Positions 34,888 to 49,735 of a stretch of 64,000 nucleotides of DNA are shown in pieces. The stretch covers positions 1,302,001 to 1,366,000 of the forward strand of contig NZ_CP096270.1 of NCBI RefSeq assembly GCF_023204835.1, given 5' to 3'. This DNA comes from Salinarchaeum laminariae. Lineage in GTDB: Archaea; Halobacteriota; Halobacteria; Halobacteriales; Salinarchaeaceae. Made by a program: the position numbers and the translations under genes. Every line of letters starts with the position of its first letter. Within the stretch, counting starts at the first letter, position 1. The notes beneath the pieces were generated by a model. It searched no databases. It worked only from the letters and a program-made list of their open reading frames with translations, and was not told where the DNA came from.

Positions 34888-35955
34888 TCACCGATCGCCG
34901 CCGAGATGCTCCACGGAGAGCCGCCCGACGAGGAGACGGACGACCACGAGTGCAAGCGCGCCTGCGACGAGGTAGCCAGCGAGGAGCGTCCACGTCTGCC
35001 CCGTTGGATTCCCGACGGAGAGCTTCGCGACCGTGTTTGCGGGATGCTCGGGGAGACGGGAGGCGACGACGAACGCCGACAGTACGCCGACGGAGTAGAC
35101 GAGCTGCGCCTGCCGGCGGTCCGGCGCGAGCAGTGCGATCGTGATGCCGAGGCCGACGATCGCGGCGGTGATCGCCGCGACGAGGCCGAGCACTGCGGGC
35201 ACGTTGTCGATCGGAATCCCGTTAACATGCAACAGCCCCAGCCAGAGGGCGACCTGCGCGGGCGCGAGCGACGCGGCCGCGAGCAGTTTGCCGTCGAGTA
35301 TGTCGACGATCGAGACCGGGGCCGCCCGGAGCAACTCGAAGGTCCCTCGCTCGAGCTCCTCGCTGATGGAGTCCACCGCGATCGATCCGCTGATGAACAC
35401 CGGCAGGAAGCACAATAGCGGGACGAGCACGGTGTAGGTGAACCCGACGTAGGGGCTTCCCGAGGACTCCTCGGGAAGCGTGATCGGTTCGAACTCGAGC
35501 CGGTCGTCGAACGCGGCACGGCGATCCCGCTCGAGGGCCTCGAGTCCGTCTCGGATCCGCACGACGACGAGCGTGCTCTGCACGCCGGAGTCGGCGACGG
35601 CCGCACGTATGCGCAACCGACCGTCCTCGCTCTCGGTGACGGTGAGGAGGGCGTCGTACTGTCCGTCCCGGAAGCGGGACTCTGCCCCGTCGGCGTCGGC
35701 GAAGCTGACTGGCTGGATGCCGTCGACGGAGTCGAGCGCGCGCGTGACGTCCTCGCCCCCTTCGCCGGTGATCGCGACGTCGACCGAGCCGCCCTCGACG
35801 GAGGAGGGGTCGTACATCGAGACGAGCCCGACGACCAGGAACGAGGAGAAGCCGGCGACGAACAGTTGGATGAGCAAGGCGAGGACGATCGTCTTCTCGC
35901 TTTTCAGCGCGGCGAGCTCCCGCCGGGCGATCGTGAGCCGGGGATCACGTGGCAA
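34888..35955 (-). CDS. ABC-2 type transporter permease
   Basis: A 355-residue permease of the NatB/YhaP-like class. The first helix follows ARRELAALKSEKTIVLALLIQLFVAG. A large extracytoplasmic loop (about residues 50-165, DVAITGEGGEDVTRALDSV) comes next, then five helices in the C-terminal half with the characteristic ISEELERGTFELLRAAPVS. It overlaps the PrsW-permease gene by 11 bases and belongs to the leftward operon with the ATPase at 37923. The system probably exports a small molecule, peptide or sodium; the substrate is unknown. Confidence 0.85.
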   Translation of the reverse strand: MPRDPRLTIARRELAALKSEKTIVLALLIQLFVAGFSSFLVVGLVSMYDPSSVEGGSVDVAITGEGGEDVTRALDSVDGIQPVSFADADGAESRFRDGQYDALLTVTESEDGRLRIRAAVADSGVQSTLVVVRIRDGLEALERDRRAAFDDRLEFEPITLPEESSGSPYVGFTYTVLVPLLCFLPVFISGSIAVDSISEELERGTFELLRAAPVSIVDILDGKLLAAASLAPAQVALWLGLLHVNGIPIDNVPAVLGLVAAITAAIVGLGITIALLAPDRRQAQLVYSVGVLSAFVVASRLPEHPANTVAKLSVGNPTGQTWTLLAGYLVAGALALVVVRLLVGRLSVEHLGGDR

Positions 35956-37922: not shown

Positions 37923-38804
37923 TCACGCTTGGGCCTCCCGGTCGTCGCCGGCGAGGTCGAGAAAGATCTCTTCGAGAGTCGACCCTTCCGTGCGGACGTC
38001 GAGCACCTGGCCGCCAGCCTCGGCCGCGTCGGCGCGGACGGCCTCGACCTCCTCGAACCGCCCGACGACCAGTTTGTGTCGGCCGTTCTCCCGGACGCTG
38101 CCCTCGATCGGAACGTCGGTGTAGACGTGGTAGGCGCTCTCGCCGTGCTCGTCACGGATCGCGTCCAGCGTTCCCCTCGCCACGATCTCGCCCTCGTTCA
38201 TGATAGCGACGCGGTCGCAGACGTCTTCGACGTGGTAGAGATTGTGCGCGCTGAACACGACCGTCTTCCCGCGCTCGGCGAGCTCGCCGACGAACTCGTT
38301 GACGTAGTTCGTCGTCCGCGGGTCGAGCCCACTCGCTGGCTCGTCGAAGATCAACACGTCCGGATCGTTGACGAGCGCGCGGGCTATCGCGACCTTCCGG
38401 GTCATCCCTTTGGACATGTCGCCGATCTTGCGGTCGCGGTGTTCGAGTTCGAGGCGGTCGAGATCCCGCTCGATCCGCTCGGCCGCGACGTCGCGGGGAA
38501 CGTCGTAGAGATCGGCGAAGAAGGTGAGATAGGAACGCGCCGTCATCTCCTCGTAGAGTGGCGACTCCTCAGGCAGGAAGCCGAGGTTCCGGCGCATCTC
38601 CGGATCGCCGGCGTCATGTCCAGCGACTGTCGCTGTCCCCTCCGTCGGTTCGAGCAGGCCGGCGAGCATCTTCAACGTCGTCGTCTTCCCGGCGCCGTTC
38701 GGGCCGACGACGCCGAAAACCGCCCCGCTCTCGACGGCGAACGTACTGTCTGCGACGGCGACGAATCCGCCGTACTCCTTTCGCAGGGACGCGACGTCGA
38801 TCAT
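37923..38804 (-). CDS. ABC transporter ATP-binding protein (ABC-2 exporter)
   Basis: A 293-residue ATPase that powers the two permeases downstream. Walker A is VVGPNGAGKTTTLKML, the signature is MSKGMTRKVAIARAL (in place of LSGGQ), Walker B is LIFDEPASGLDP and the H loop is VVFSAHNLYHVEDVC. GFLPEESPLYEEM is the Q-loop region. After residue 210 an acidic regulatory tail follows. It is the promoter-proximal gene of the operon, with the PrsW-permease gene starting 130 bases downstream. The start MIDVASLRKEYGG is standard; the frame stays open to 39629 through repeat DNA, which is rejected. Confidence 0.92.
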   Translation of the reverse strand: MIDVASLRKEYGGFVAVADSTFAVESGAVFGVVGPNGAGKTTTLKMLAGLLEPTEGTATVAGHDAGDPEMRRNLGFLPEESPLYEEMTARSYLTFFADLYDVPRDVAAERIERDLDRLELEHRDRKIGDMSKGMTRKVAIARALVNDPDVLIFDEPASGLDPRTTNYVNEFVGELAERGKTVVFSAHNLYHVEDVCDRVAIMNEGEIVARGTLDAIRDEHGESAYHVYTDVPIEGSVRENGRHKLVVGRFEEVEAVRADAAEAGGQVLDVRTEGSTLEEIFLDLAGDDREAQA

Positions 38805-38932
38805 TGCGAAGGTGTTGGCAGGTCCGGTAGTAAAAACGCCCGGCCCCGAATCGGGAGTGGTGGACCGGTGGATCGCTTCCGCTGCGGCCTCGAATCCAGA
38901 ACGATCGGGGCCGCTCGCAGTTACGATGCTGC

Positions 38933-39048
38933 CTCGAAAGCCCTCGGCTGGCTCGCGCACGCTCAGCCGGATATCCTCGCTCGTTTCACTCGCTCGGATA
39001 GGGCCGGCTGAGGCGCACGCGACCCCGCCTCGCCCTTTCAGTCCTCCA
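38933..39048 (+). repeat. Dispersed intergenic repeat, family B, copy 2
   Basis: It begins TCGAAAGCCCTCGGCTGGCT, contains CTCGCTCGGATAGGGCCGGC and TGAGGCGCACGCGACCC, and ends near CGCCCTTTCAGTCCTCC. Its ends match copy 1 at 34490-34625; together the copies flank the exporter operon. Confidence 0.7.
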
Positions 39049-39869
39049 GGGGCGGTGGAACGTTTTGGGCCGATTCGCGGGGGTCGGTCGGTGAAGCGGA
39101 CCGTGGATTGGTTGGGGAGCTGCGTCTGTGTGGGTTCGACTGTCGCTGACGCGGTGAGACGGACGGTGTGCTCGAGGCTCATGCCACACGTCGTCTCCGG
39201 GGCCAGATCTCCTCGGTGCTCGATGACTGGGTACTCGTCGTCGACCCCGTCTCGATCGACATGGCCGATCGTGAGGGAATCCCGTCTCACCAGCCAACTG
39301 AACCGTTCGTCGATGGCAGCCGCTGCGATCGACGTTCGTGACGAGAGCGGCTGCCTACCGAGGAACGCGGCACGACCATATCTGAAATATATAAAATTAT
39401 TATTCATATGGGGAATTTGATCGTATGGTGTTCGGTGGCCTCTACTTGGCCAGAGTACGCTGGCCCGGTCATGTGCTGGAACTCTATTGTATATGCGTTC
39501 CACACCAGAGGGGGATCGTTGAACCGTTGGTGTGTCGCCGATCGAGTAGTGGCCCACCTGACAACTGTGTGGTGAATGCCGGATGGAGTTCTCTACTGAT
39601 GGATCGGATATTCGAACAAAAATTGGCAATAGGGTTGTTTATCCTATCTTATTCATGCCTCTCTCCTCACTGATGTCGCTCCATGTCCCGTTTGATCCGC
39701 ATGGGGAAGCGGAGAGAGACACACTCGTCAGAGAACCGATTCGATCCACACTGCGAACCTGAGGGAATAGAGGAGTCATTCGTGCGCTTCATCGTTGTCC
39801 CGGGTCGCCACTACCTGCTCACCCCTGTGTCGTCTACGTCGATAGAGCGCACCGATAACAAATAGTATG
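39049..39869. other. Gene-poor, AT-rich interval
   Basis: About 820 bases without a convincing gene. From about 39370 the base composition drops sharply (for example AAATATATAAAATTATTATT at about 39385), and it stays uneven to the end of the window. Open frames on both strands, including a 60-residue plus-strand frame at 39683-39865, show no family resemblance. This is a possible left edge of an acquired region. Confidence 0.55.
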
Positions 39870-42008
39870 CTATTCTGATAAAAATCCAATATCCTCTGCT
39901 TTTCTATGATAATATTCGGTGGGTCCTCTCGCCACCGTCTGCTCGCTGGATTCGACCACGGCCGCGTCTTCTGGGAGCAGTGCAGTGATCAGGAATCCCG
40001 TCCGCTGACCAAAGTATCCAAGCAGTTCGGCGATCCGTTCGGCATCGATAGCTTCGACCGAGTCGAGGACGACGAACGGCACGTCGTCGTACACTCTGTG
40101 GACGATGTACCCCGACAGCGCCAGTACGAGTCCGAGGACCTTTCGCTCCGATTCGCTCAGCGTCCGGACCGAATCCTCGTAGACGGCACCGTCGTCACCT
40201 TCACGCACGACGGTGAGTTCGAAGGTCCCCGGCTCGGCCACGGCGTCGCCGGGCTTGTGGTCGATCCAGATACGCGCGATGTTCTCGTAGTCGAGGACCT
40301 CGACGACGCGCTCCATGTGTTCGTTGAACGCCGACGCGAGTGCCCGCTCGGCGGCTTCGACGCGCCCGCGGAGCGTATGGAGCCCCTCGACCACTGCATC
40401 GCGTGCTTCCTCGACGTCCTCGCGATCGTCGACGAGCTGCTGGATTCGCTCGATCTCTGTCTCGACGCCCTCGAGCTCGCTCTCTGCCTGTCCGCGCTCG
40501 TACTCCAGTTCTGAGAGGCGCTGATACGCCTCGACCAGATCGCTCTCTCGAAGCGCTTCCGTCTCGTCGACGCGGCGTTCGAGCTCCTCGATCTCCGCCG
40601 CGAGCTCTTGGGCCGATTCGGTGCGTCGCTCGGCCTCCGATCGGTGGTGGTCGATCTGGTCTTCGATCCGTTCGGAGCGTGACTCGAGCCGTCGGTACTC
40701 TTCGCGTTCGTCGTCGAGTTCCTGTAGCCGATCCTGCAGTTCGTCGATCTCGTCTTCGATCTCACCAACATCGGCGTGCAGATCGGCCCGGAGGTCGCGA
40801 AGGGTGTCGAGTTGGTCCCGAACTGCATCCACCGCCACGTCGCTTCCACACGTCCAGCACTCGACCGTTTCGTCGGCGGGATTCAGTTGATCGGTGACAC
40901 TGTCCGACCCCGGGGGAGCCTCGCTCTCGTTCGCTCTGTTCCCACCGATCGCGTTGATGTCGATGTCGTCGTCCTCCAGCACCGTCTCGTTGAATCCGAT
41001 GATGGCGTCGACGTCGGTGTAGGTCGCTTGGCGGTCGCGTTTTCGGCGTCGTTGGCGTGCGAGTTTCTCGTCGATGCGTTCGATCTCTTCCTCTGGAACC
41101 GCGGTCGCTTCGAGCGTTGCTTCGACTTCTGTAGCCTCTTCTTCGTACTCTGCGGCCTTCTTGCGGTGGTACTTGGCCTCGTCCTTCGTTTCTGCGAGTT
41201 CGGAACGGAGGTCCTGGAGCTGTTCGAGTAGCTCTTCGGCCTGCTCGGCTTCGGCCTCGCTTGCATCGTAGGCGTCGACCTCCGCCTCGACGTCTCCGAT
41301 CTCTGTTTCGATTTCCTCCAGTAACTTCTGCTTCTGTTCGCGCTGGTCGCGAAGAGTTGGAAGCCGCTCCTCCTCGCCATCAATCGTCGCGAGGTACTCG
41401 TCTATCTGCTGGAGTTGGGACTCGAGGTCATCGATTCGTCGGTCGACGGCTTCCGTGTCGACCGGTCGCATCAAGAGGTCCCGAAGCTCAGTCGGGTCGC
41501 CGCCTCGCTCGACTGCCCGTCGAACGGGATTGTCCTCGAGGAGCGTGACGAAGGCGTCGACGACGTCGCCGTCGTCCGCGAGCGGGTCGCCACCTGCAAC
41601 GACGCTGCCTCGATCGGTTCGGGTGAATGTACGCGTGTACGTCTCTTCACCGAAGTCGAGCTCGACGCGCCCCACGTCGGCGTCCGAGGATAGTGTCGTC
41701 GCTGGCGCCGCAGTCGCTTCGGTCCCGAGTGCTGCACAGAGCCCGCGGAGTGTCGACGTCCGATTGGTCGCGTTGTGGCCGGCGATTGTCGTGATGCCAG
41801 CGTCGATCGTGACCTCGCCTTCGTCGATGCCGCCGATTTGTTCGAGCGAGAGCGTGGCGGTCGGCGGTGCATCGATAGATGGCGTCTCGACGTCGGTGTC
41901 GAAGGATGCCTCGACGTCGGTGTCTACGGTATCGACATCGAACTCGTCGACTGGCGCGTCGCCGCCGCGATCGTCCCTGGGTCGGGATGGTGGATCGAAC
42001 TGTGACAT
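39870..42008 (-). CDS. Archaea-specific SMC-related protein
   Basis: A 712-residue SMC/Rad50-like coiled-coil protein. After an acidic start, the ATPase head begins near residue 60. The P-loop reads TTIAGHNATNRTSTL, where the Walker lysine is arginine. Two long coiled coils (about 185-340 and 395-560) are joined at a hinge with a single CWTCG zinc-hook-like motif near residue 384. The C-terminal head has LSESERKVLGLV (signature) and PFVVLDSVEAID (Walker B, with serine where SMC proteins have the catalytic glutamate). Homologues lie next to RdfA in haloarchaea, as here. The role is unknown; the intact fold but altered catalytic residues suggest structural or weak ATP use. Confidence 0.88.
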   Translation of the reverse strand: MSQFDPPSRPRDDRGGDAPVDEFDVDTVDTDVEASFDTDVETPSIDAPPTATLSLEQIGGIDEGEVTIDAGITTIAGHNATNRTSTLRGLCAALGTEATAAPATTLSSDADVGRVELDFGEETYTRTFTRTDRGSVVAGGDPLADDGDVVDAFVTLLEDNPVRRAVERGGDPTELRDLLMRPVDTEAVDRRIDDLESQLQQIDEYLATIDGEEERLPTLRDQREQKQKLLEEIETEIGDVEAEVDAYDASEAEAEQAEELLEQLQDLRSELAETKDEAKYHRKKAAEYEEEATEVEATLEATAVPEEEIERIDEKLARQRRRKRDRQATYTDVDAIIGFNETVLEDDDIDINAIGGNRANESEAPPGSDSVTDQLNPADETVECWTCGSDVAVDAVRDQLDTLRDLRADLHADVGEIEDEIDELQDRLQELDDEREEYRRLESRSERIEDQIDHHRSEAERRTESAQELAAEIEELERRVDETEALRESDLVEAYQRLSELEYERGQAESELEGVETEIERIQQLVDDREDVEEARDAVVEGLHTLRGRVEAAERALASAFNEHMERVVEVLDYENIARIWIDHKPGDAVAEPGTFELTVVREGDDGAVYEDSVRTLSESERKVLGLVLALSGYIVHRVYDDVPFVVLDSVEAIDAERIAELLGYFGQRTGFLITALLPEDAAVVESSEQTVARGPTEYYHRKAEDIGFLSE

Positions 42009-42173
42009 TCTTAGATCGTCAACGGAGTTGCGACGCGATCGGTTCCGGATCTACTGGTCAAAGACACGACCACTCCTCCCGTTCGTCGTGACTTATAGAT
42101 TGTGGACGTCGTCGACCTCTAGTAACTGGTCCGTGGGGCGTGGGATCGCCGGATCCAGGAACGGTTGTTCACT

Positions 42174-42806
42174 CTACTGCGACGCACACGCACAACTCGC
42201 TTCGTCGAGGAGTTCGTCCACGGCGTAGGTCTCTTCACAGTCCGGACAGGTCACCCGTACCGTGAGTGACGCTTCGAGAGGCCCACTGTCGAGCCTATCT
42301 GCCCGACGGAGGGACCCTAGTGACTGTTCCACGACCGACCTGTCGCGCTCGATGATCGAGGCGATCATCTCACGAGTTTCTTCGACCGACGGATCGGCTC
42401 GCGACCGTGCCGTATCGACGCCCAGGTGGTCGTTCAGGTGCCGGCGCACCGTCTCGTGGGAGACGAACTCGCGCTCGAGCGAACCGACGTCGACGTCACT
42501 CCGGTCGAGCGCAGTTGCGATGCGTTCGCGGACGGCAACGTCGACCGACATCTCTTCTGCAGGGGTGCCGATGACTACCGATCGAACGGTTCCGGGATCG
42601 GCCGCGATCTCCACGCCAGCTTCGCGAAGCGCACTCTCCAGGAGCTGTTCGTCGACGTACTTGGCGAGTTCACGTAGACTTGCGTCCTGATCCTTCCGCA
42701 GTTGTCGGAGTTCCTCGTCGAGCGTCGCGAGTCCACGTCGGTCGGCGGCTGCGGCCACTTTGCAGCATGGATCGTCCGCGTCGAGGTCGTGGTCGGAGGT
42801 TGCCAT
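42174..42806 (-). CDS. rdfA: Rod-determining factor RdfA homologue
   Basis: A 210-residue protein. The N-terminus has CCKVAAAADRRGLATLDEEL, then SLRELAKYVDEQLLESALREAGV, and the family hallmark LEREFVSHETVRRHLNDHLG (about residues 108-127). The C-terminus is a zinc-ribbon-like CPDCEETYAVDELLDEASCAC. This matches the haloarchaeal RdfA family, in which a member was linked to rod shape in Haloferax volcanii. It lies 166 bases upstream of the SMC-related gene on the same strand, an arrangement repeated in many haloarchaea. Its basic and Cys motifs suggest DNA or RNA binding. The ATG at 42806 is chosen; 42830 is possible. Confidence 0.83.
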   Translation of the reverse strand: MATSDHDLDADDPCCKVAAAADRRGLATLDEELRQLRKDQDASLRELAKYVDEQLLESALREAGVEIAADPGTVRSVVIGTPAEEMSVDVAVRERIATALDRSDVDVGSLEREFVSHETVRRHLNDHLGVDTARSRADPSVEETREMIASIIERDRSVVEQSLGSLRRADRLDSGPLEASLTVRVTCPDCEETYAVDELLDEASCACASQ

Positions 42807-43369
42807 GGCGGCTCTGCCAATCGATAGCACGAACGCTCGTATAGGTCTTCATATTGTACGTTCGAGCCGTTCCATTGGCCCAGCCATCTGGATTCAGAGT
42901 AGATTGGGTCGCTCGAGTACCCCACTAGCTGGACCCCGTGATGGACGTCTCGCTGCAGTTGATCCCTTCTCACGCTCCGGGGAATTGTTTGACAGTGTTG
43001 TATTGTCAAACGCTCTGCCCGGAGTCCGTTCTGGGAACTCTGACGCCAGTAAGATTCTGTAAATATGAAAACAATTTGTTGCACCATCCAGGATTGTTGG
43101 ATATCTTGGTGATTGTTCCACGTATGTGTTTGCCAACGGTTCTACCTACTCTCCTCACGTTTCCGGGCAGGATCAGTGCGCACCTGTCGCATGCGGGAGT
43201 TTCACAAACAATCTCGGGCGGATCGAGATCGACCGCGTCCTTTCGTATATGGTGGATAGAATATATTGAGTTCCAATATAAGAGGTATGCTATCGGTAGA
43301 AATATTCCAATGGTGGAAAATCCCCGATCCACGGCCACGTTTATCACGCAGTCGCGCGTGTGGTATCGT
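42807..43369. other. AT-rich intergenic region upstream of the IclR gene
   Basis: About 560 bases with no gene. It contains a perfect inverted repeat GTTTGACA / TGTCAAAC (42988-42995 and 43004-43011, 8-base spacer), a very AT-rich stretch at 43250-43320, and the IclR promoter. On the minus strand ACCTATACGAG near 42840 may be the RdfA promoter. Confidence 0.6.
43305..43318 (+). promoter_or_regulatory. Palindrome before the IclR promoter, candidate operator
   Basis: TTCCAATGGTGGAA is a 5-4-5 palindrome lying about 20 bases upstream of the TATA-like CGTTTATCAC (43339-43348). The ATG at 43370 is about 27 bases after that TATA box. A half-like TTCCAATA occurs at 43271. IclR proteins often bind such palindromes at their own promoters. 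Confidence 0.45.
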
Positions 43370-44134
43370 ATGGGACAATCGTCGACGGGGAACTCGATCG
43401 GCTCGCTGGAGCGTGCGTTCGACATTATCGCGCTCCTACGCGAGCGGGGATCCCTCACCCTCACCGAAATCGCAGAGGAACTCGGCGTACCGACGAGCAC
43501 GGTACACGTCTATCTCAAGACGCTCGAGAAGGGGGGCTTCGTGACGGTCGAAGACAGACAGTACCGCAATAGTCTGAAATTCCTCGAAATCGGGGGTCAG
43601 GTCCGTCAGCAACTCGATATCTACAGAGCTGCGGCTCCAGTTCTAACCGACATCGCAGGGATCACCGGCGAACGTGCGGGATTGGGTGTCGAGGAGAGCG
43701 GCAAGCGAGTTCTCATCGGCGCAGAAGATGGCCGAGGGGCGGTGAGTGACAACATCCCAATCGGCGAGTTCACGGAACTGCACTGGACTGGGCTCGGAAA
43801 GTGTCTGCTGGCGCATCTCCCCCACGAGCGCCGGGAGTCGATTATAACGGACAATGATCTCCCTCGCGCGACCGAGAACACCATCACCGACCCCGGGCGG
43901 TTACGCGAGGAACTGTCGACGATCAGAGAGCGGGGCTTCGCGGTCGAAGACGAGGAGCGCCGCGACGGCATCCGAAGTGTGGATGTGCCGATCCTCACGC
44001 CAGAGGGTGAGATCATCGCCGCTATCGGCGTGACTGGCCCCGTTAACCGATTCGGTGCCGAACAGCTCTCACAGTACATCTCCCTGCTCCAGGACAAGGC
44101 GAACGAGATCAAACTCAAGACGGTCTACTACTAG
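43370..44134 (+). CDS. IclR family transcriptional regulator
   Basis: A 254-residue regulator. Residues about 10-70 form the winged helix (SLERAFDIIALLRERGSLTLTEIAEELGVPTSTVHVYLKTLE). Residues 75-254 form the effector-binding domain, with LHWTGLGKCLLAHLP, RERGFAVEDEERRDGIRSVDVPI and IGVTGPVNRF. IclR proteins usually sense sugar acids or aromatic intermediates and control adjacent catabolic genes. The enolase-superfamily dehydratase starts 88 bases downstream, so this is its likely regulator. The start is fixed by the TATA spacing and the family N-terminus. Confidence 0.93.
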   Translation: MGQSSTGNSIGSLERAFDIIALLRERGSLTLTEIAEELGVPTSTVHVYLKTLEKGGFVTVEDRQYRNSLKFLEIGGQVRQQLDIYRAAAPVLTDIAGITGERAGLGVEESGKRVLIGAEDGRGAVSDNIPIGEFTELHWTGLGKCLLAHLPHERRESIITDNDLPRATENTITDPGRLREELSTIRERGFAVEDEERRDGIRSVDVPILTPEGEIIAAIGVTGPVNRFGAEQLSQYISLLQDKANEIKLKTVYY

Positions 44135-44222
44135 TCTGTGCCCGGTCCTGGCGGAACGGAGCGCCCCACGTGATACAATATCTATGGAAAAATTTAAGAG
44201 AGTAGTTACTCAACCGCGCCCT

Positions 44223-45395
44223 GTGCAAATCACAGACGTAGCGGCGACGCCTGTTTCTGTGCCGCTTTCGCCGATCGAAGACGGTGGTATCGCGCCGTAC
44301 AGGACGAATCACGGGGAACTCTACGAGATGGACCGTATCCTCGTCAGGGTCGATACCGACGAAGGGTACACCGGCTGGGGCGAGGTGCGATCGTTCCTCT
44401 CGCCGGAGGCAACCGTCTCCGTTATCGAGGATGGCGTCGCACCGATGGTCGTCGGTCAGTCGCCGTTCGAACTCGAACGGTTCCGCCGGCAGGTGTTCAT
44501 CGAATATACGAACGCCAACATGTTCTTCGCGCCGGTCGAAACTGCCTGCTGGGACATCGTTGGCAAAGCGCTGGACCGCCCCGTCTACGAACTCCTCGGC
44601 GGCTGGACCGCGAACCACCAGACCAACATGCGTCACCGCGAGCATGTCGCTCAGGACGACGACGCTGGATCCGTCGAGTTCGCGTACGCGCTCGGCATCT
44701 TCCCACCGGAGGAGTCCCGCCAGTACGCACGGCGTGCCCTCGAGGAAGGCTACTCGGTGCTGAAGACGAAGGCGGGACGAGACTGGCAGACGGACGTCGA
44801 GCGGATCGTCGAGATGCACGACGAAGTCGACGGACGACTCGAGTTCCGAATCGACCCGAACCAGGGCTGGACGACCGAAGACGCCGTGCGCTTGGCTGCA
44901 AAACTTCAGGACGCAGGTGTTTACCTGCAATACATCGAGCAGCCGATCCGGGTCGATACTCACGGCTCGCTCGAGTCGCTTCGCAACCGCACGGCGCAGC
45001 CAATCGCTGCCAACGAGGACACCTACATCCCGCGGAACCTCCGGCAGATGATCGATCGGAGCGCCATCGACGCGGCCGTCGTGGACATCACGCCAGCCGG
45101 CGGGATCGCGGGCGTCCGACACCTGGCCGGAATCGCCGAGGACGGCGGCATCTCCGTTGCACACCACTGTGCGTTCGACCTCGGCATTCGGACCGCGGCG
45201 ATCCTCCATACCGTCCACAGCACACCGGCCATTAACCTCCCAAGCGACACGGCGTACTTCGGCTGGGAGGCGGACGTCATCGAGGACCCCTTCGAGATAG
45301 AGAATGGGAGCATTCGCGTCCCGGACGAGCCCGGCCTCGGGATCACCATCGACCAGGATACAATCGATCGATATCGGATCGACGACGCAGCCTAA
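44223..45395 (+). CDS. Mandelate racemase/muconate lactonizing enzyme family dehydratase
   Basis: A 390-residue enolase-superfamily enzyme. The N-terminal capping domain starts VQITDVAATPVSVPL. The barrel carries the catalytic K-x-K in VLKTKAGRDW, metal ligands in FRIDPNQGW, YIEQPI and IAANEDTY, and a histidine in ISVAHHCAFDLGI, the MR-subgroup pattern used by sugar-acid dehydratases. Likely it turns an aldonate into a 2-keto-3-deoxy acid; the substrate is unknown. I prefer the GTG at 44223, since the AAAAATTTAAG just upstream looks like its TATA box. An ATG at 44184 would add 13 residues translated from that AT-rich box. Confidence 0.85.
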   Translation: MQITDVAATPVSVPLSPIEDGGIAPYRTNHGELYEMDRILVRVDTDEGYTGWGEVRSFLSPEATVSVIEDGVAPMVVGQSPFELERFRRQVFIEYTNANMFFAPVETACWDIVGKALDRPVYELLGGWTANHQTNMRHREHVAQDDDAGSVEFAYALGIFPPEESRQYARRALEEGYSVLKTKAGRDWQTDVERIVEMHDEVDGRLEFRIDPNQGWTTEDAVRLAAKLQDAGVYLQYIEQPIRVDTHGSLESLRNRTAQPIAANEDTYIPRNLRQMIDRSAIDAAVVDITPAGGIAGVRHLAGIAEDGGISVAHHCAFDLGIRTAAILHTVHSTPAINLPSDTAYFGWEADVIEDPFEIENGSIRVPDEPGLGITIDQDTIDRYRIDDAA

Positions 45396-45455: not shown

Positions 45456-46241
45456 CTACACTCTGTGCGCCGCCCAGCCACCGTCGACGTAGATGTCCGC
45501 GCCGTGGATGTATCTCGCTTCCTCGCTCGCGAGGAACGTGACGACGTCGGCGATGTCCTCAGGTTCACCGAACTCCGGTAGCAGCGTCTGTTCGCGGCTG
45601 ATCGCGATCGACGATTCGTCCTGATAATCCTGGATCGGGGTCTTGACGTATCCCGGCGAGACGCAGTTCACGTTGACGTTCTCCGGCCCGAGCTCGACGG
45701 CAAGATCTCGCGTCATGTTGACCTGTCCGGCCTTTGCCGCGGAGTACGCCGGTCCCGACCCGCCCTCTGTGGCGTTGACCGAAGCGATGTTGACGATGTC
45801 GCCCTCAGTTTCCTTGATGTGCGGAATCGCGTGTTTACAACAGAAGAATGTACCATCGAGATCGACCCCGATCATCCTGTTCCAGTCCTCGATAGAGGTC
45901 TCTTGGGAGTCACCGACGACCGAGATACCGGCGTTGTTGACGAGCACGTCGATTTGGCCATAGACGTCGAGCGTCTCCTCGACCATCGCCTCGACTCGTT
46001 GGTGGTCGGAGACGTCCGTCGAGACGAAGATAGCGTCACCTGGCGTTTCCTGGCGCACGTACTCCTCCGTCGGGACGGTCAGATCATTGTCGTAGTGTTT
46101 CCCCTGGTTGGGTTCGTTGCTTCGAGATGCACAGACGACGTTGGCACCCTCCTCACCGAACGCCTGGGCGATCCTCCGGCCGATACCACTCGAGGCTCCG
46201 GTAACGATGACTGTTCGATCCTCGTGACGGGCAGAGTTCAT
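45456..46241 (-). CDS. Short-chain dehydrogenase/reductase
   Basis: A 261-residue classical SDR. The cofactor motif is VTGASSGIGRRIAQAFGEEG, then VLVNNAGISVVG, and the catalytic triad region NIASVNATEGGSGPAYSAAKAGQ (S, Y and K). CVSPGYVKTPIQD and GADIYVDGGW close the fold. Lack of an acidic residue at the end of beta 2 (CASRSNEPN) suggests NADP is possible. In this sugar locus it may oxidise an aldose to a lactone. It is transcribed convergently to the dehydratase and divergently from the importer genes. Confidence 0.92.
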   Translation of the reverse strand: MNSARHEDRTVIVTGASSGIGRRIAQAFGEEGANVVCASRSNEPNQGKHYDNDLTVPTEEYVRQETPGDAIFVSTDVSDHQRVEAMVEETLDVYGQIDVLVNNAGISVVGDSQETSIEDWNRMIGVDLDGTFFCCKHAIPHIKETEGDIVNIASVNATEGGSGPAYSAAKAGQVNMTRDLAVELGPENVNVNCVSPGYVKTPIQDYQDESSIAISREQTLLPEFGEPEDIADVVTFLASEEARYIHGADIYVDGGWAAHRV

Positions 46242-46493
46242 TGACGGTGGGTACACCGAATTACCAGATCCTCATTAACGTTTGCGTCGGCTATGCACTC
46301 CGGTCGCCGACCCTCCGCAGCGTCCCTCGGTCGGCACTATACCGGTCCTCGGTTGTTCTTCGACGTCGAAGCTCGGCCACGATCTGGGCATTCCCGACCG
46401 CGACAGTCGGCTAGAGCTCTGGGTCCAACACCGGCACTCGGTGCTCGCGTCGGCCTGGAGCAACCGCCAAACACATTGGAAAGATGGTAAAAA

Positions 46494-46526: not shown

Positions 46527-47816
46527 ATGCCGACGAGACGACAGTTCGTTACGACCGCAGGTGCGGGTATCGCCGCGGCTGTTGCCGGCTGCTCCGGCAA
46601 CGGCGGCTCCGGAAGCGGCGGGGATATGGAGATCATGATCGCTTGGAGTGGTGGTGACGGTGCCACTGCTTTCGAAGCGATGCACGACGGGTTCAAAGAC
46701 GAGTATCCCGACGTCGCTACCACGATCAACAACAACCCCGGTGGTGCAGGGACCGGTCTGGCGACCGCTCTCGACACCCGGATGTTCAACGAAGATCCCC
46801 CCTCGACCTGGGGCTTCTTCACCGGGCCGCAGCTTCAGCCGTTCGTCGACGGTGGACTGATGGGGAGCATCACGGAGGACGTCTGGGAGGAAGCGGGACT
46901 CACCGAGGTCGTTCCGGAGTATCTCCAGCAGATGTGCGAGTTCGGGAGCACAGGATACGTCGCCGTCCCGCTCGAGTTCAACCGCCTCAACAACCTCTTC
47001 TACAACGTCGACGTCGTGGAGGAGGCCGGTGTCGACCCAACCTCGATTTCGTCACCGACGGAGCTCATCGACGCGATGGACACCATCGAGAGTGAGACCG
47101 GTGCGAACGGGCTGGCGACGTCGACTCAGGGCACCTGGGTCGTCCTTCAGCTGTGGGAGTCCATCTACGTGGGCGAGAACGGCTACGACTCCTACCAGTC
47201 GTTCCTCGAGGGGAATGTCGCGGAAAACGAGGCGGACGTCAAGGCCGCGCTGGAAGTGCTCGCCGAGTACCGGAGTTATTGGAACGACGATGCTGCGTCC
47301 GTGAACTTCTCGGAAGCGATTAGCGACTTCATGGGCGGCGAAGCTGCGTTCCTCAATCAGGGCGCCTGGGCCGTCGGGAACTTTAGCCAGTCCGACGAGT
47401 TCAACTACGACACCCACTGGCAGTCGACCCCGATTCCGGGGACCGACGACGTGTTCATGGGCCAGAACTCCGGGTTCATGTACCCAGAGCCCCAGCCGAC
47501 GCCGGAAGCGACCAAGAAGTGGCTCCGGTACGTCGGGAGCAAGGAAGCCCAGGTCCGATTCAACGCGATCAAGGGTGGCGTTCCGTGCCGGAACGACATC
47601 GAGATGGACGGCAGCGGCGAGTACACGTTCAACGGGTATCAACAGACCCAGTACGACGAGTTCCTCGCTGCCGAGAACCTCACTGGTACGATCGCTCACA
47701 ACAACGAGGTGCTCCCACAGATCGCCTCGAACGTGTCGGGCGTCTTCTCGACCTTCAAGAGCAACTGGAACGTCGATCAAGCGTACAACGGCCTCGTCGA
47801 CGCCTTCGACGTCTAA
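46527..47816 (+). CDS. ABC transporter sugar-binding lipoprotein
   Basis: A 429-residue family 1 extracellular solute-binding protein. TRRQFVTTAGAGIAAAVAGC shows a twin-arginine Tat signal ending in a lipobox (cysteine near residue 22), with a G/S/N linker after it. The lobes carry TGYVAVPLEFNRLNNLFYN, FLNQGAWAVGNF and GVPCRNDIEM, typical of MalE/UgpB-like proteins. It captures a sugar or oligosaccharide outside the membrane and delivers it to the permeases encoded 24 bases downstream. Substrate unknown. Confidence 0.93.
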   Translation: MPTRRQFVTTAGAGIAAAVAGCSGNGGSGSGGDMEIMIAWSGGDGATAFEAMHDGFKDEYPDVATTINNNPGGAGTGLATALDTRMFNEDPPSTWGFFTGPQLQPFVDGGLMGSITEDVWEEAGLTEVVPEYLQQMCEFGSTGYVAVPLEFNRLNNLFYNVDVVEEAGVDPTSISSPTELIDAMDTIESETGANGLATSTQGTWVVLQLWESIYVGENGYDSYQSFLEGNVAENEADVKAALEVLAEYRSYWNDDAASVNFSEAISDFMGGEAAFLNQGAWAVGNFSQSDEFNYDTHWQSTPIPGTDDVFMGQNSGFMYPEPQPTPEATKKWLRYVGSKEAQVRFNAIKGGVPCRNDIEMDGSGEYTFNGYQQTQYDEFLAAENLTGTIAHNNEVLPQIASNVSGVFSTFKSNWNVDQAYNGLVDAFDV

Positions 47817-47839
47817 TGGCACGATTTCGAGCGTAACGC

Positions 47840-48793
47840 ATGGACGAGACTAACGAGGTATCCACGAACGACCGAACGACGCTCACGGGCCTTCTAGGTC
47901 CAATAACCCGGCGTTTCCGCCGAAACGAGTTCCTACAGTCGCTCCCGTTTTTACTCGTGCCGACGCTGCTGCTCGGCGTGTTCGTATACGGGTCGATCCT
48001 CTGGAACGTCGTCCTCTCGCTCACTGACTTCCGGGGTTTCGGCAATCCGGACTACTCGTCACTCGACGTCGAACTGTACCAGCAGATGCTGAACGATCCC
48101 ACGTTCATCACGGCCGCGAAGAACACCGTGCTGCTGATGGGAGGGTTCACCGCCGTCTGTTTGATCGTCGGACTCGGTCTCGCGATCCTCATCGACCGCG
48201 AAATCAGGTTCGAGGGCTCGCTACGGACGGTCTATCTTCTCCCCATGAGCCTCTCCTTCGTGGTGACCTCGATCTTCTGGGCGTGGATGTTCAACCCCTC
48301 GAACGGCGTCGTCAACTATCTCCTCCGGACCGCTGGCTTGGATTTTCTCGCCAACGACTGGTTCGGCGATCCGGCAACGCAGCTCTGGGCGATCATGATC
48401 GCGCTCGTCTGGCAGTTCAGCGGGCTTGCGATGATCATCTACCTCGCCGGACTCCGTAAGATCCCGACCGAGCAGTACGAGGCCGCACAGCTCGATGGGG
48501 CTCCCGTCTGGATTCGCTATCTCAAGGTAATCGTGCCGCAGCTCAAGACGTCGACGTTCTCGGCGATCGTCATTCTCCTCCTGTTCTCGCTGAAGGCGTT
48601 CGACTTCATCTACGTACTGTACGGCGTCAACCCGGGGCCCGGGGCCGACATCCTCCCCGTAATGATGTACCGAGAGGCGTTCGACGCGAACAACTGGGCG
48701 TACGGGTCCAGCATCGCGGTCGTCCTCCTCCTCGCGACCTTCGCCGCGATCGTCCCGTACCTCTACTATCAACACAAGAAGGACCTCCTCTGA
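47840..48793 (+). CDS. ABC sugar transporter permease (MalF/UgpA type)
   Basis: A 317-residue permease with six helices. The N-terminus is polar, then LPFLLVPTLLLGVFVYGSILWN is the first helix. The cytoplasmic EAA loop reads YEAAQLDGAPVWIRYLKVIVP. It forms a heterodimeric channel with the next gene product. The genes are separated by three bases, so they are cotranscribed with the binding protein. No ATPase follows in the operon; the nearest is the convergent gene at 51895. Confidence 0.93.
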   Translation: MDETNEVSTNDRTTLTGLLGPITRRFRRNEFLQSLPFLLVPTLLLGVFVYGSILWNVVLSLTDFRGFGNPDYSSLDVELYQQMLNDPTFITAAKNTVLLMGGFTAVCLIVGLGLAILIDREIRFEGSLRTVYLLPMSLSFVVTSIFWAWMFNPSNGVVNYLLRTAGLDFLANDWFGDPATQLWAIMIALVWQFSGLAMIIYLAGLRKIPTEQYEAAQLDGAPVWIRYLKVIVPQLKTSTFSAIVILLLFSLKAFDFIYVLYGVNPGPGADILPVMMYREAFDANNWAYGSSIAVVLLLATFAAIVPYLYYQHKKDLL

Positions 48794-48796
48794 CTC

Positions 48797-49735
48797 ATGA
48801 CTGATCCATCCCACTCGGACGGCGCCGAATCACGGATTGCAAACGCACTCGACGGGACGTCCTGGGTCCGTGCGGGTCTCTACGCGAGCCTGTTCGTGAT
48901 CGCAGTGCTGTATCTGTTACCGCTGTGGTCCGCAATCGCGACTTCACTGAAGACCGTCACCGGCTTTGCCAACACGGCTCCGTTCGTCCCGCCCGGCTTC
49001 GATCAGTTCACGCTCGACGCCTGGTCGTCGGCCTGGGAGACGCTGAACCCTTCGATCATCAACAGTGCGATGTTCGTCATCCCGGCGACGATCATCGTCC
49101 CGATCCTGGGCAGCCTGGCAGCGTTCGGACTAACGATCACTAACTGGCGGGGTCAGCTTGCGCTGTACACGCTGTTCATCGCTGGCATCTTCGTCCCGCT
49201 GCAATCGGTGCTCGTTCCGCTGTCGATCATCTGGAGCAACGCGAGCGTCGAGGCTACGTTGGCGAGTCTGGGGCCACTGAACGTCTGGGAGCTTCCGTAC
49301 ACCCAGCGGTATCAGGCACAGTTCATCGAACTGGCCGTGACCCATATCGCCTTCGGGATTCCGCTCGCAACGTTGCTCTTTCGGTCACACTACAAGGACA
49401 TGTCCGAAGAGATGATCGAGGCGGCTCGCCTCGAAGGCGTGAGCATCTACCGCATCTACCTCAACATCGTGTTGCCTCTCTCACGACCGGTGTTCGTGGT
49501 CGTGATGATCCTGGCATTCACCACGATCTGGAACGACCTGCTGTTCGCGCTCGTGCTGGTCAGTAACCCGGCGGCGGAGCCGGTCACCGTGACCTTCTCT
49601 GGCATAGCTGGCGCGAAAGTCCAGCAGTTCAACACGATCATGGCGGGTGGCTTTCTGACCGCGCTGCCCACGCTGATCGTGTACGTCCTGTTCACCCGGC
49701 AGTTCGCAGAGGGATTCAGCCAGACCGGCGCCTGA
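48797..49735 (+). CDS. ABC sugar transporter permease (MalG/UgpE type)
   Basis: A 312-residue permease, second half of the importer channel. Helices include VRAGLYASLFVIAVLYLLPLW at the N-terminus and a C-terminal LPTLIVYVLFTRQFAEGF. The EAA loop is IEAARLEGVSIYRIYLNIVLP. It is coupled to the preceding permease (three-base gap). A creatininase-family gene follows 111 bases downstream. Confidence 0.93.
   Translation: MTDPSHSDGAESRIANALDGTSWVRAGLYASLFVIAVLYLLPLWSAIATSLKTVTGFANTAPFVPPGFDQFTLDAWSSAWETLNPSIINSAMFVIPATIIVPILGSLAAFGLTITNWRGQLALYTLFIAGIFVPLQSVLVPLSIIWSNASVEATLASLGPLNVWELPYTQRYQAQFIELAVTHIAFGIPLATLLFRSHYKDMSEEMIEAARLEGVSIYRIYLNIVLPLSRPVFVVVMILAFTTIWNDLLFALVLVSNPAAEPVTVTFSGIAGAKVQQFNTIMAGGFLTALPTLIVYVLFTRQFAEGFSQTGA

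Follow-up and report, generated by a model that had tools for sequence, protein, structure and literature searches.

An RdfA-family gene beside an SMC-related protein of the haloarchaeal ASRP clade, in which the Walker B glutamate is replaced

A stretch of 64,000 nucleotides from Salinarchaeum laminariae (contig NZ_CP096270.1, positions 1,302,001 to 1,366,000), referred to here as the window, carries on its minus strand, head to tail, a gene for an RdfA-family protein followed by a gene for an SMC-related protein of the ASRP (Sph) family; both frames are open (Table 1). The two proteins belong to families whose genes are conserved as a pair and whose members have parallel histories, and the ASRPs of the window's order have lost the catalytic glutamate of Walker B. 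We consider it rather probable that the window ASRP is an ATP-binding, poorly hydrolysing clamp that acts together with RdfA.

The family assignments were made with profile searches. The window ASRP matched NCBIfam NF045487 with about 584 bits (cut-off 300, E 3.1e-175), and the RdfA-family protein matched Pfam PF21811 with about 143 bits (gathering cut-off 27, E 1.3e-41, profile positions 1–194 of 195). Both matches are far above chance level and bear out the RdfA and SMC-related homologies proposed in an earlier, sequence-only reading of this DNA. The window ASRP stayed below the NCBIfam cut-offs of Rad50_Halo (37.8 bits vs 1000), SMC_prok_B (28.3 bits vs 567.35), and Arcadin-4 (NF053563; 20 bits vs 860). 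Halves of a Rad50-like ATPase head occupy the two termini, with Walker A in the N-terminal half, the signature and Walker B in the C-terminal half, and a zinc-hook coiled coil between them. The open reading frame (ORF) of the ASRP starts from the ATG at 42008 (712 aa), from which residues are numbered here; that of RdfA starts from the ATG at 42806, and an alternative GTG lies 8 codons upstream in the ORF list.

In a quick tree, the smallest starred set containing the window ASRP had eight rows, all from the window's order (Shimodaira–Hasegawa-like approximate likelihood-ratio support, SH-aLRT, 99). The protein thus groups with the haloarchaeal (Sph) ASRPs in this tree, where the base of the order's group has a support of 82 and is drawn open. 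A profile search of the genome found two RdfA–ASRP pairs, and that in the window is the more diverged (584.5 vs 667.2 bits for ASRP, 142.6 vs 232.3 for RdfA). The window pair is a further copy of a published, widespread haloarchaeal gene pair, both members of which are already named in annotated plasmid records; the description of it as an unusual module could not be upheld.

The AlphaFold2 model of the ASRP had a mean predicted local distance difference test score (pLDDT) of 83.9 and showed two long helices, 186–345 and 393–572. Its first-ranked structural match was the Rad50 ABC head 5da9_B, solved with ATP-gamma-S (Z 22.2, root-mean-square deviation 4.6 over 324 residues, 14% identity), and Foldseek returned another Rad50, 7zr1_D (E 2.4e-14). 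At the level of sequence, a search of solved structures up to E 0.01 gave nothing but a myosin coiled coil, and the ASRP profile gave mostly coiled coils, plus short matches to the Walker A region of Rad50. Both genes and all four motifs listed in the sequence-only reading (GHNATNRTS, CWTCG, LSESERKVL, and VVLDSVEAID) are present, the genes at the coordinates given there. The true start codon of the ASRP may lie further in than the ATG at 42008, to judge from the low-confidence start of the model.

Instead of the Walker A lysine and Walker B glutamate of canonical SMC/Rad50 proteins, the window ASRP has Arg83 and Ser650. In one alignment, the motifs APNASGKTS and VIVLDELTYLD of ASRPs from outside the order fell on the same columns as GHNATNRTS and FVVLDSVEAID of the window protein, so that the assignment of the two substitutions is more than a motif reading. 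We examined 77 aligned ASRPs of the order, which comprise the best-scoring and some of the lowest-scoring fetched loci and are not a random draw. The residue after the Walker B aspartate was never glutamate: it was serine in 57, glycine in 12, arginine in three, asparagine in two, alanine in two, and glutamine in one. The Walker A position, readable in 76 rows, held arginine in 54 and lysine in 22, and all 54 arginine rows carried the Walker B serine. Both zinc-hook cysteines were retained in 77/77; PMC9389158, where the ASRP family is defined, describes a hinge CxxC for the great majority of its members. Outside the order, 11 aligned rows had the Walker A lysine without exception and, at the Walker B position, glutamate in eight, asparagine in two, and aspartate in one; five of the 11 score under the ASRP cut-off, and one (L077, 146 bits) is probably Rad50-like. 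The six above the cut-off had five glutamates and one aspartate. Arg/Ser is therefore the normal state of the clade and nothing special to the window protein. The named loci were found partly by a Walker A pattern and are hence kept outside the arginine counts; those with another pattern (39 of 66 rows, the window included) had arginine in 38 and lysine in one.

The changes were placed on a tree of 65 rows from which the motif columns had been left out, a quick tree with several long branches and the same open base. The Lys/Arg position changed twice and the Glu/non-Glu position twice. This pattern suggests that the glutamate was likely lost on the branch leading to the ASRPs of the order, followed by a change from lysine to arginine in the largest subclade and a single return to lysine. 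Three loci (L098, L099, and also L164) have GSNASNKSS or SPNASNKTS as Walker A and Asp-Ala in Walker B, with the glutamate at +3 kept; L098 seemingly represents a return to lysine inside the arginine clade.

The substituted catalytic residues, and the position of the window pair as the more diverged of two, might be expected of a decaying, non-functional paralogue. However, both frames are full-length, the clade motifs are kept, and the same substitutions are found in Halobacterium salinarum Sph2. The motifs N-A-T-N-R-T-S and D-S-x-E were invariant in 12 arginine-clade rows, hand-chosen so that the fixed arginine is partly a matter of choice; since these rows are only 32–41% identical to the window protein, selection is indicated. 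Single rows of the clade do deviate, with GENATNRSS or GRNATGRTS. We rejected decay as exceedingly improbable, the window motifs being clade norms.

The sequence-only reading had named rare adjacency of the two genes as a finding that would speak against it. Among 295 sampled genomes of the phylum, for which every match was listed, an RdfA gene was found within 1 kb of 78 of the 87 ASRP matches in the window's order (both figures include one partial ASRP gene, G063:C24, 195 bits, beside an RdfA), and the two are thus usually adjacent. RdfA preceded ASRP in 43 cases and followed it in 15, and the genes were convergent in 12 and divergent in eight. Because adjacency persists while orientation changes, we infer selection for the pair. 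RdfA was also present in the fetched flank (up to 3 kb) at 64 of 80 named loci. Of 145 genomes of the order that were at least 90% complete, the same 121 had both ASRP (E <=1e-60) and RdfA (E <=1e-5), and the other 24 had neither at these thresholds. Up to four ASRP candidates were scored per genome in the larger sample and up to eight in the smaller, and genomes with many copies are perhaps undercounted. In a published count over 24 genomes, 42 of 54 RdfA and 42 of 50 SMC-like genes were adjacent (PMC10869688). Across genomes, PMC9389158 describes no apparent neighbour consensus for ASRP.

Copies of ASRP sit on many plasmids. One plasmid of Natrinema gelatinilyticum (NZ_CP100757.1) contains seven ASRP and eight RdfA places, and in Natronococcus jeotgali (L152, L159, L173, and L178) the retrieved flanks of three of the four fetched copies contained no RdfA, two of these flanks being truncated at contig ends. 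Among viral contigs, 28 stretches fitted a pattern and none encoded a relative.

The partners also have parallel histories. Partner distances correlated with r = 0.86 over 66 RdfA–ASRP pairs, a value reached in 0/2000 shuffles. Within nine multi-pair genomes (26 pairs) r was 0.76, and 0/20000 swaps of partners inside a genome reached it.

To trace the pair beyond the order, we searched with an RdfA profile built from rows of the window's order only. RdfA homologues were found directly beside ASRP in three genomes of one outside family (L078, E 5e-13; L083, 4e-11; L085, 2e-9); Pfam PF21811 scored one of the three above its cut-off and two below. These genomes encode methyl-coenzyme M reductase (MCR) and together hold four ASRPs above the cut-off, three of which adjoin RdfA. 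The three paired ASRPs keep both canonical residues (APNASGKTS, QPNASGKTS, and APNATGKTS in Walker A; LDELTYL or LDELTFL in Walker B), and the fourth, L079, has lysine and aspartate and no RdfA in its flanks. Since RdfA homologues adjoin canonical-residue ASRPs in these relatives, RdfA would be older than the change of the active site. From their kinship, the three genomes would be those methanogens that neighbour the Sph clade in PMC9389158. In two further sampled genomes of the same outside family (G146 and G155), neither ASRP nor RdfA was found, and a weak RdfA match in G231 was a SurA-like protein and was taken as chance.

The AlphaFold2 model of the window RdfA (mean pLDDT 87.2) consists of a helical domain, one long helix, and a cysteine-rich C-terminal ribbon (CPDC...CAC). 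Cys187, Cys190, Cys205, and Cys207 were conserved in at least 90% of 56 aligned rows. The sequence had no solved relative up to E 1; with the model, Foldseek gave nothing at E 0.001 or better, and in a second structural comparison Z never exceeded 4.9. The weak structural rows, over residues about 20–137, include the helix-turn-helix proteins SigN (a sigma factor), TnsB, DeoR, and KorB. These sub-threshold matches, with Z up to 4.9, allow DNA binding by RdfA as a guess only.

A catalytically weak ASRP head is a reasonable inference from the residues described above. In the clamp reading, the ASRP would dimerise through its zinc hook, and its Rad50-like heads would still bind ATP and hydrolyse it slowly or not at all; ATP binding is expected because Thr84 and Ser85 of the P-loop, the Walker B Asp649, the signature, and the D-loop aspartate are all kept. 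The protein would act as a long-lived clamp or scaffold and not as a cycling motor, with RdfA as its dedicated partner, possibly an accessory subunit that binds DNA or the head. Output may be tuned by the amount of the pair made, as RdfA and Sph3 are among the Haloferax volcanii proteins that fall most strongly in conditioned medium (PMC12240190). By analogy with the Haloferax paralogues this output would be cell shape, motility, or gene conversion; which one applies to the window copy cannot be said. When rdfA (HVO_2174) or sph3 (HVO_2175) is deleted in H. volcanii, rods and motility are lost and all cells are disks (PMC10869688). Deletion of any one of the four H. volcanii sph genes lowers survival in a gene-conversion assay, and sph2 and sph4 could not be deleted together (PMC11276520). 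PMC13286277 describes Sph3 as a promoter of the plate shape, which disagrees with the absence of rods that PMC10869688 and PMC11276520 report after loss of sph3.

Several observations weigh against a dedicated RdfA–ASRP clamp. Nine of the 87 ASRP matches in the window's order had no RdfA inside 1 kb (two of these have one at 1.6–1.7 kb), and 16 of the 80 named loci had none in the flank that was fetched (up to 3 kb). Outside the order, no RdfA was present in the retrieved flanks of eight of 11 ASRP rows, including the second ASRP of G164; contig ends truncate some of these flanks. Conversely, two MCR-bearing genomes (G310 and G318), both assembled in many contigs, have an RdfA homologue and no ASRP above the cut-off; that of G318 is at most 1.4 kb from the end of its contig, so its neighbour could be missing. 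Outside the order, the evidence falls short of an absolute link. The parallel histories support stable pairing and not binding, because co-inherited neighbours would show parallel trees even in the absence of contact. In the Haloferax pair that we checked, an IclR gene stands downstream where ddfA would be expected, so that this pair is probably not Sph3. Finally, Glu652, three residues after the Walker B aspartate, could stand in for the lost glutamate.

The last point was followed across the order. Glutamate at +3 was present in 54/54 arginine rows and in 2/22 lysine rows; the remaining lysine rows had glycine (18) or serine (two) there, and lacked the glutamate at +1 as well. Together with the fixation of the Arg83 and Glu652 positions across the 12 arginine-clade rows, this association is what would be seen if the head were still an active ATPase, its general base moved from +1 to +3 and the phosphate contact taken over by Arg83. 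We regard such an enzyme as distinctly unlikely: the +1 glutamate was lost also in the lysine rows with glycine or serine at +3, and hence independently of the +3 glutamate; L098, L099, and L164 show that the +3 glutamate does not depend on arginine; and the tree contains few changes, two at the Lys/Arg and two at the Glu/non-Glu position. A different possibility is that Arg83, Ser650, and the new Glu652 where the D-loop begins together form an active site that is rebuilt and not just broken, in a non-motor SMC clamp joined by an older RdfA. The head might then engage its partner by ATP binding or by an Arg83–Glu652 bridge across the dimer, with no hydrolysis cycle. This explanation appears somewhat doubtful to us, and we keep it open because the +3 glutamate accompanies arginine in every arginine row and is found in so few lysine rows.

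The pair could also organise the chromosome in the manner of coalescin (ClsN), the shape phenotype of its relatives being indirect. ClsN is a member of this family that binds inactive loci and forms compartments (PMC9389158, PMC11946384), and the impairment of gene conversion by each of the four H. volcanii sph deletions (PMC11276520) would fit such a role. However, deletion of sph4 did not significantly reduce the number of domain boundaries or loops and diminished only some short-range contacts (PMC9764264). A single Sulfolobus genome, used as a control, has an ASRP above the cut-off and gave no RdfA match; ClsN therefore seems to work without RdfA (n=1). Such an organiser is possible, though we would not expect it.

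A Lamassu- or Wadjet-like defence system was considered because PADLOC gave weak matches (the best to LmuB, with 44.9 bits across residues 309–650), the Lamassu chains 9hqx and 9hqu were among the Foldseek matches, and copies are located on many plasmids. The PADLOC matches fall mostly on the coiled coil, however, and RdfA had no PADLOC match. The ten scanned neighbour ORFs, the nearest of which encode an ABC ATPase and an IclR regulator, contained no effector-like domain, LmuA-like or other, and the phenotypes of the relatives concern shape, motility, and gene conversion (PMC10869688, PMC11276520). We rejected a role in defence as very improbable.

Table 1. Positions in the window of the two genes, the gap between them, and the parts of the ASRP.
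Feature	Position	Strand	Basis or remark
ASRP/Sph-type SMC-related protein, 712 aa	39870..42008	-	NCBIfam NF045487, Pfam AAA_23, AlphaFold2 model, Rad50 5da9_B
RdfA-family protein, 210 aa	42174..42806	-	Pfam PF21811, AlphaFold2 model
Intergenic gap, 165 nt	42009..42173	-	Contains TATA-like ctataag, 42092-42098, read by eye
N-terminal extension of ASRP, aa 1-49, acidic by eye	41862..42008	-	Low AlphaFold2 confidence (mean pLDDT 40-48, residues 1-40); the first strand follows at 50
Walker A GHNATNRTS, aa 77-85	41754..41780	-	Lys replaced by Arg83
Zinc-hook motif CWTCG, aa 384-388	40845..40859	-	Sequence and alignment
ABC/SMC signature LSESERKVL, aa 617-625	40134..40160	-	Sequence and alignment
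Walker B VVLDSVEAID, aa 646-655	40044..40073	-	Asp649 kept, Ser650 for Glu, Glu652 at +3, D-loop Asp655

The TATA-like element in the gap, recognised by eye, might be a promoter of the ASRP gene's own. On one side of the pair, the window contains genes for an IclR regulator (42938-44134), a mandelate racemase/enolase-type enzyme (44055-45395), a short-chain dehydrogenase (45456-46256), and a solute-binding protein with two permeases (46527-49735). These look like a cluster for sugar-acid catabolism and uptake, the substrate being a guess. An IclR-family gene is also found near the RdfA–ASRP pair at three Haloferax loci (L142:5033-5851, L143:5043-5861, and L156:5033-6154); its presence near the pair in both may be a coincidence. 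Downstream of the pair, the minus strand encodes an ABC-2 type membrane protein and an ABC ATPase (34888-35955 and 37923-39629, respectively). Elsewhere, two RdfA homologues (L116:1529-2113 and L117:4776-5468) occur in genomes that each have two weakly scoring MCR genes and no ASRP above the cut-off; that at L116 adjoins an acyl-CoA ligase gene and a gene of the fatty-acid-oxidation type.

Few parts of archaeal cell-shape control are known, and RdfA with Sph3 is among them. Should the Sph proteins of haloarchaea be SMC-type clamps that do not go through the usual ATPase cycle, it would be wrong to model them as motors that move DNA. The MCR-bearing relatives, with a canonical ASRP beside RdfA, allow a natural comparison of the states before and after the change, by which the role of hydrolysis could be tested. 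For specialists, the value lies in the loss of the catalytic glutamate across a clade that has kept its partner, and in the canonical-residue relatives beside RdfA. A literature search, which mostly reached listings or passages and was thin on subscription journals, found no statement on the clade-wide loss of the Walker B glutamate or on RdfA homologues outside the haloarchaea, and parts 1–3 of 4 of PMC9389158 do not comment on missing catalytic residues in ASRP; as evidence of novelty this is weak.

Among known systems, H. volcanii RdfA/Sph3 resembles the window pair in its two families and the adjacency of its genes (PMC10869688), a likeness at the level of the families. It differs in having ddfA as a neighbour, whereas the ten scanned neighbour ORFs of the window gave no ddfA-like (HalOD1) match, and orthology of the window copy to HVO_2174/HVO_2175 is not shown. 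In common with the ASRPs including ClsN, the window protein scores above the cut-off of the NCBIfam equivalog and has the head, coiled coil, and zinc hook; unlike the aligned ASRPs from outside the order (Lys 11/11, Glu 8/11; ClsN itself was compared by description), it has arginine and serine. With Rad50 it shares the head fold, as the first-ranked solved match 5da9_B indicates, and the zinc hook, and it differs in its score far below the Rad50 cut-off, its RdfA neighbour, and the replacement of lysine and glutamate. H. salinarum Sph2 on pNRC200 has an upstream rdfA in the same gene order, the arginine (GRNATGRTS), the serine (LLDSLEAID), and the hook CWTCG; unlike the window pair, it is plasmid-borne, has a gap of 60 nt, and keeps glycine at P-loop position 6.

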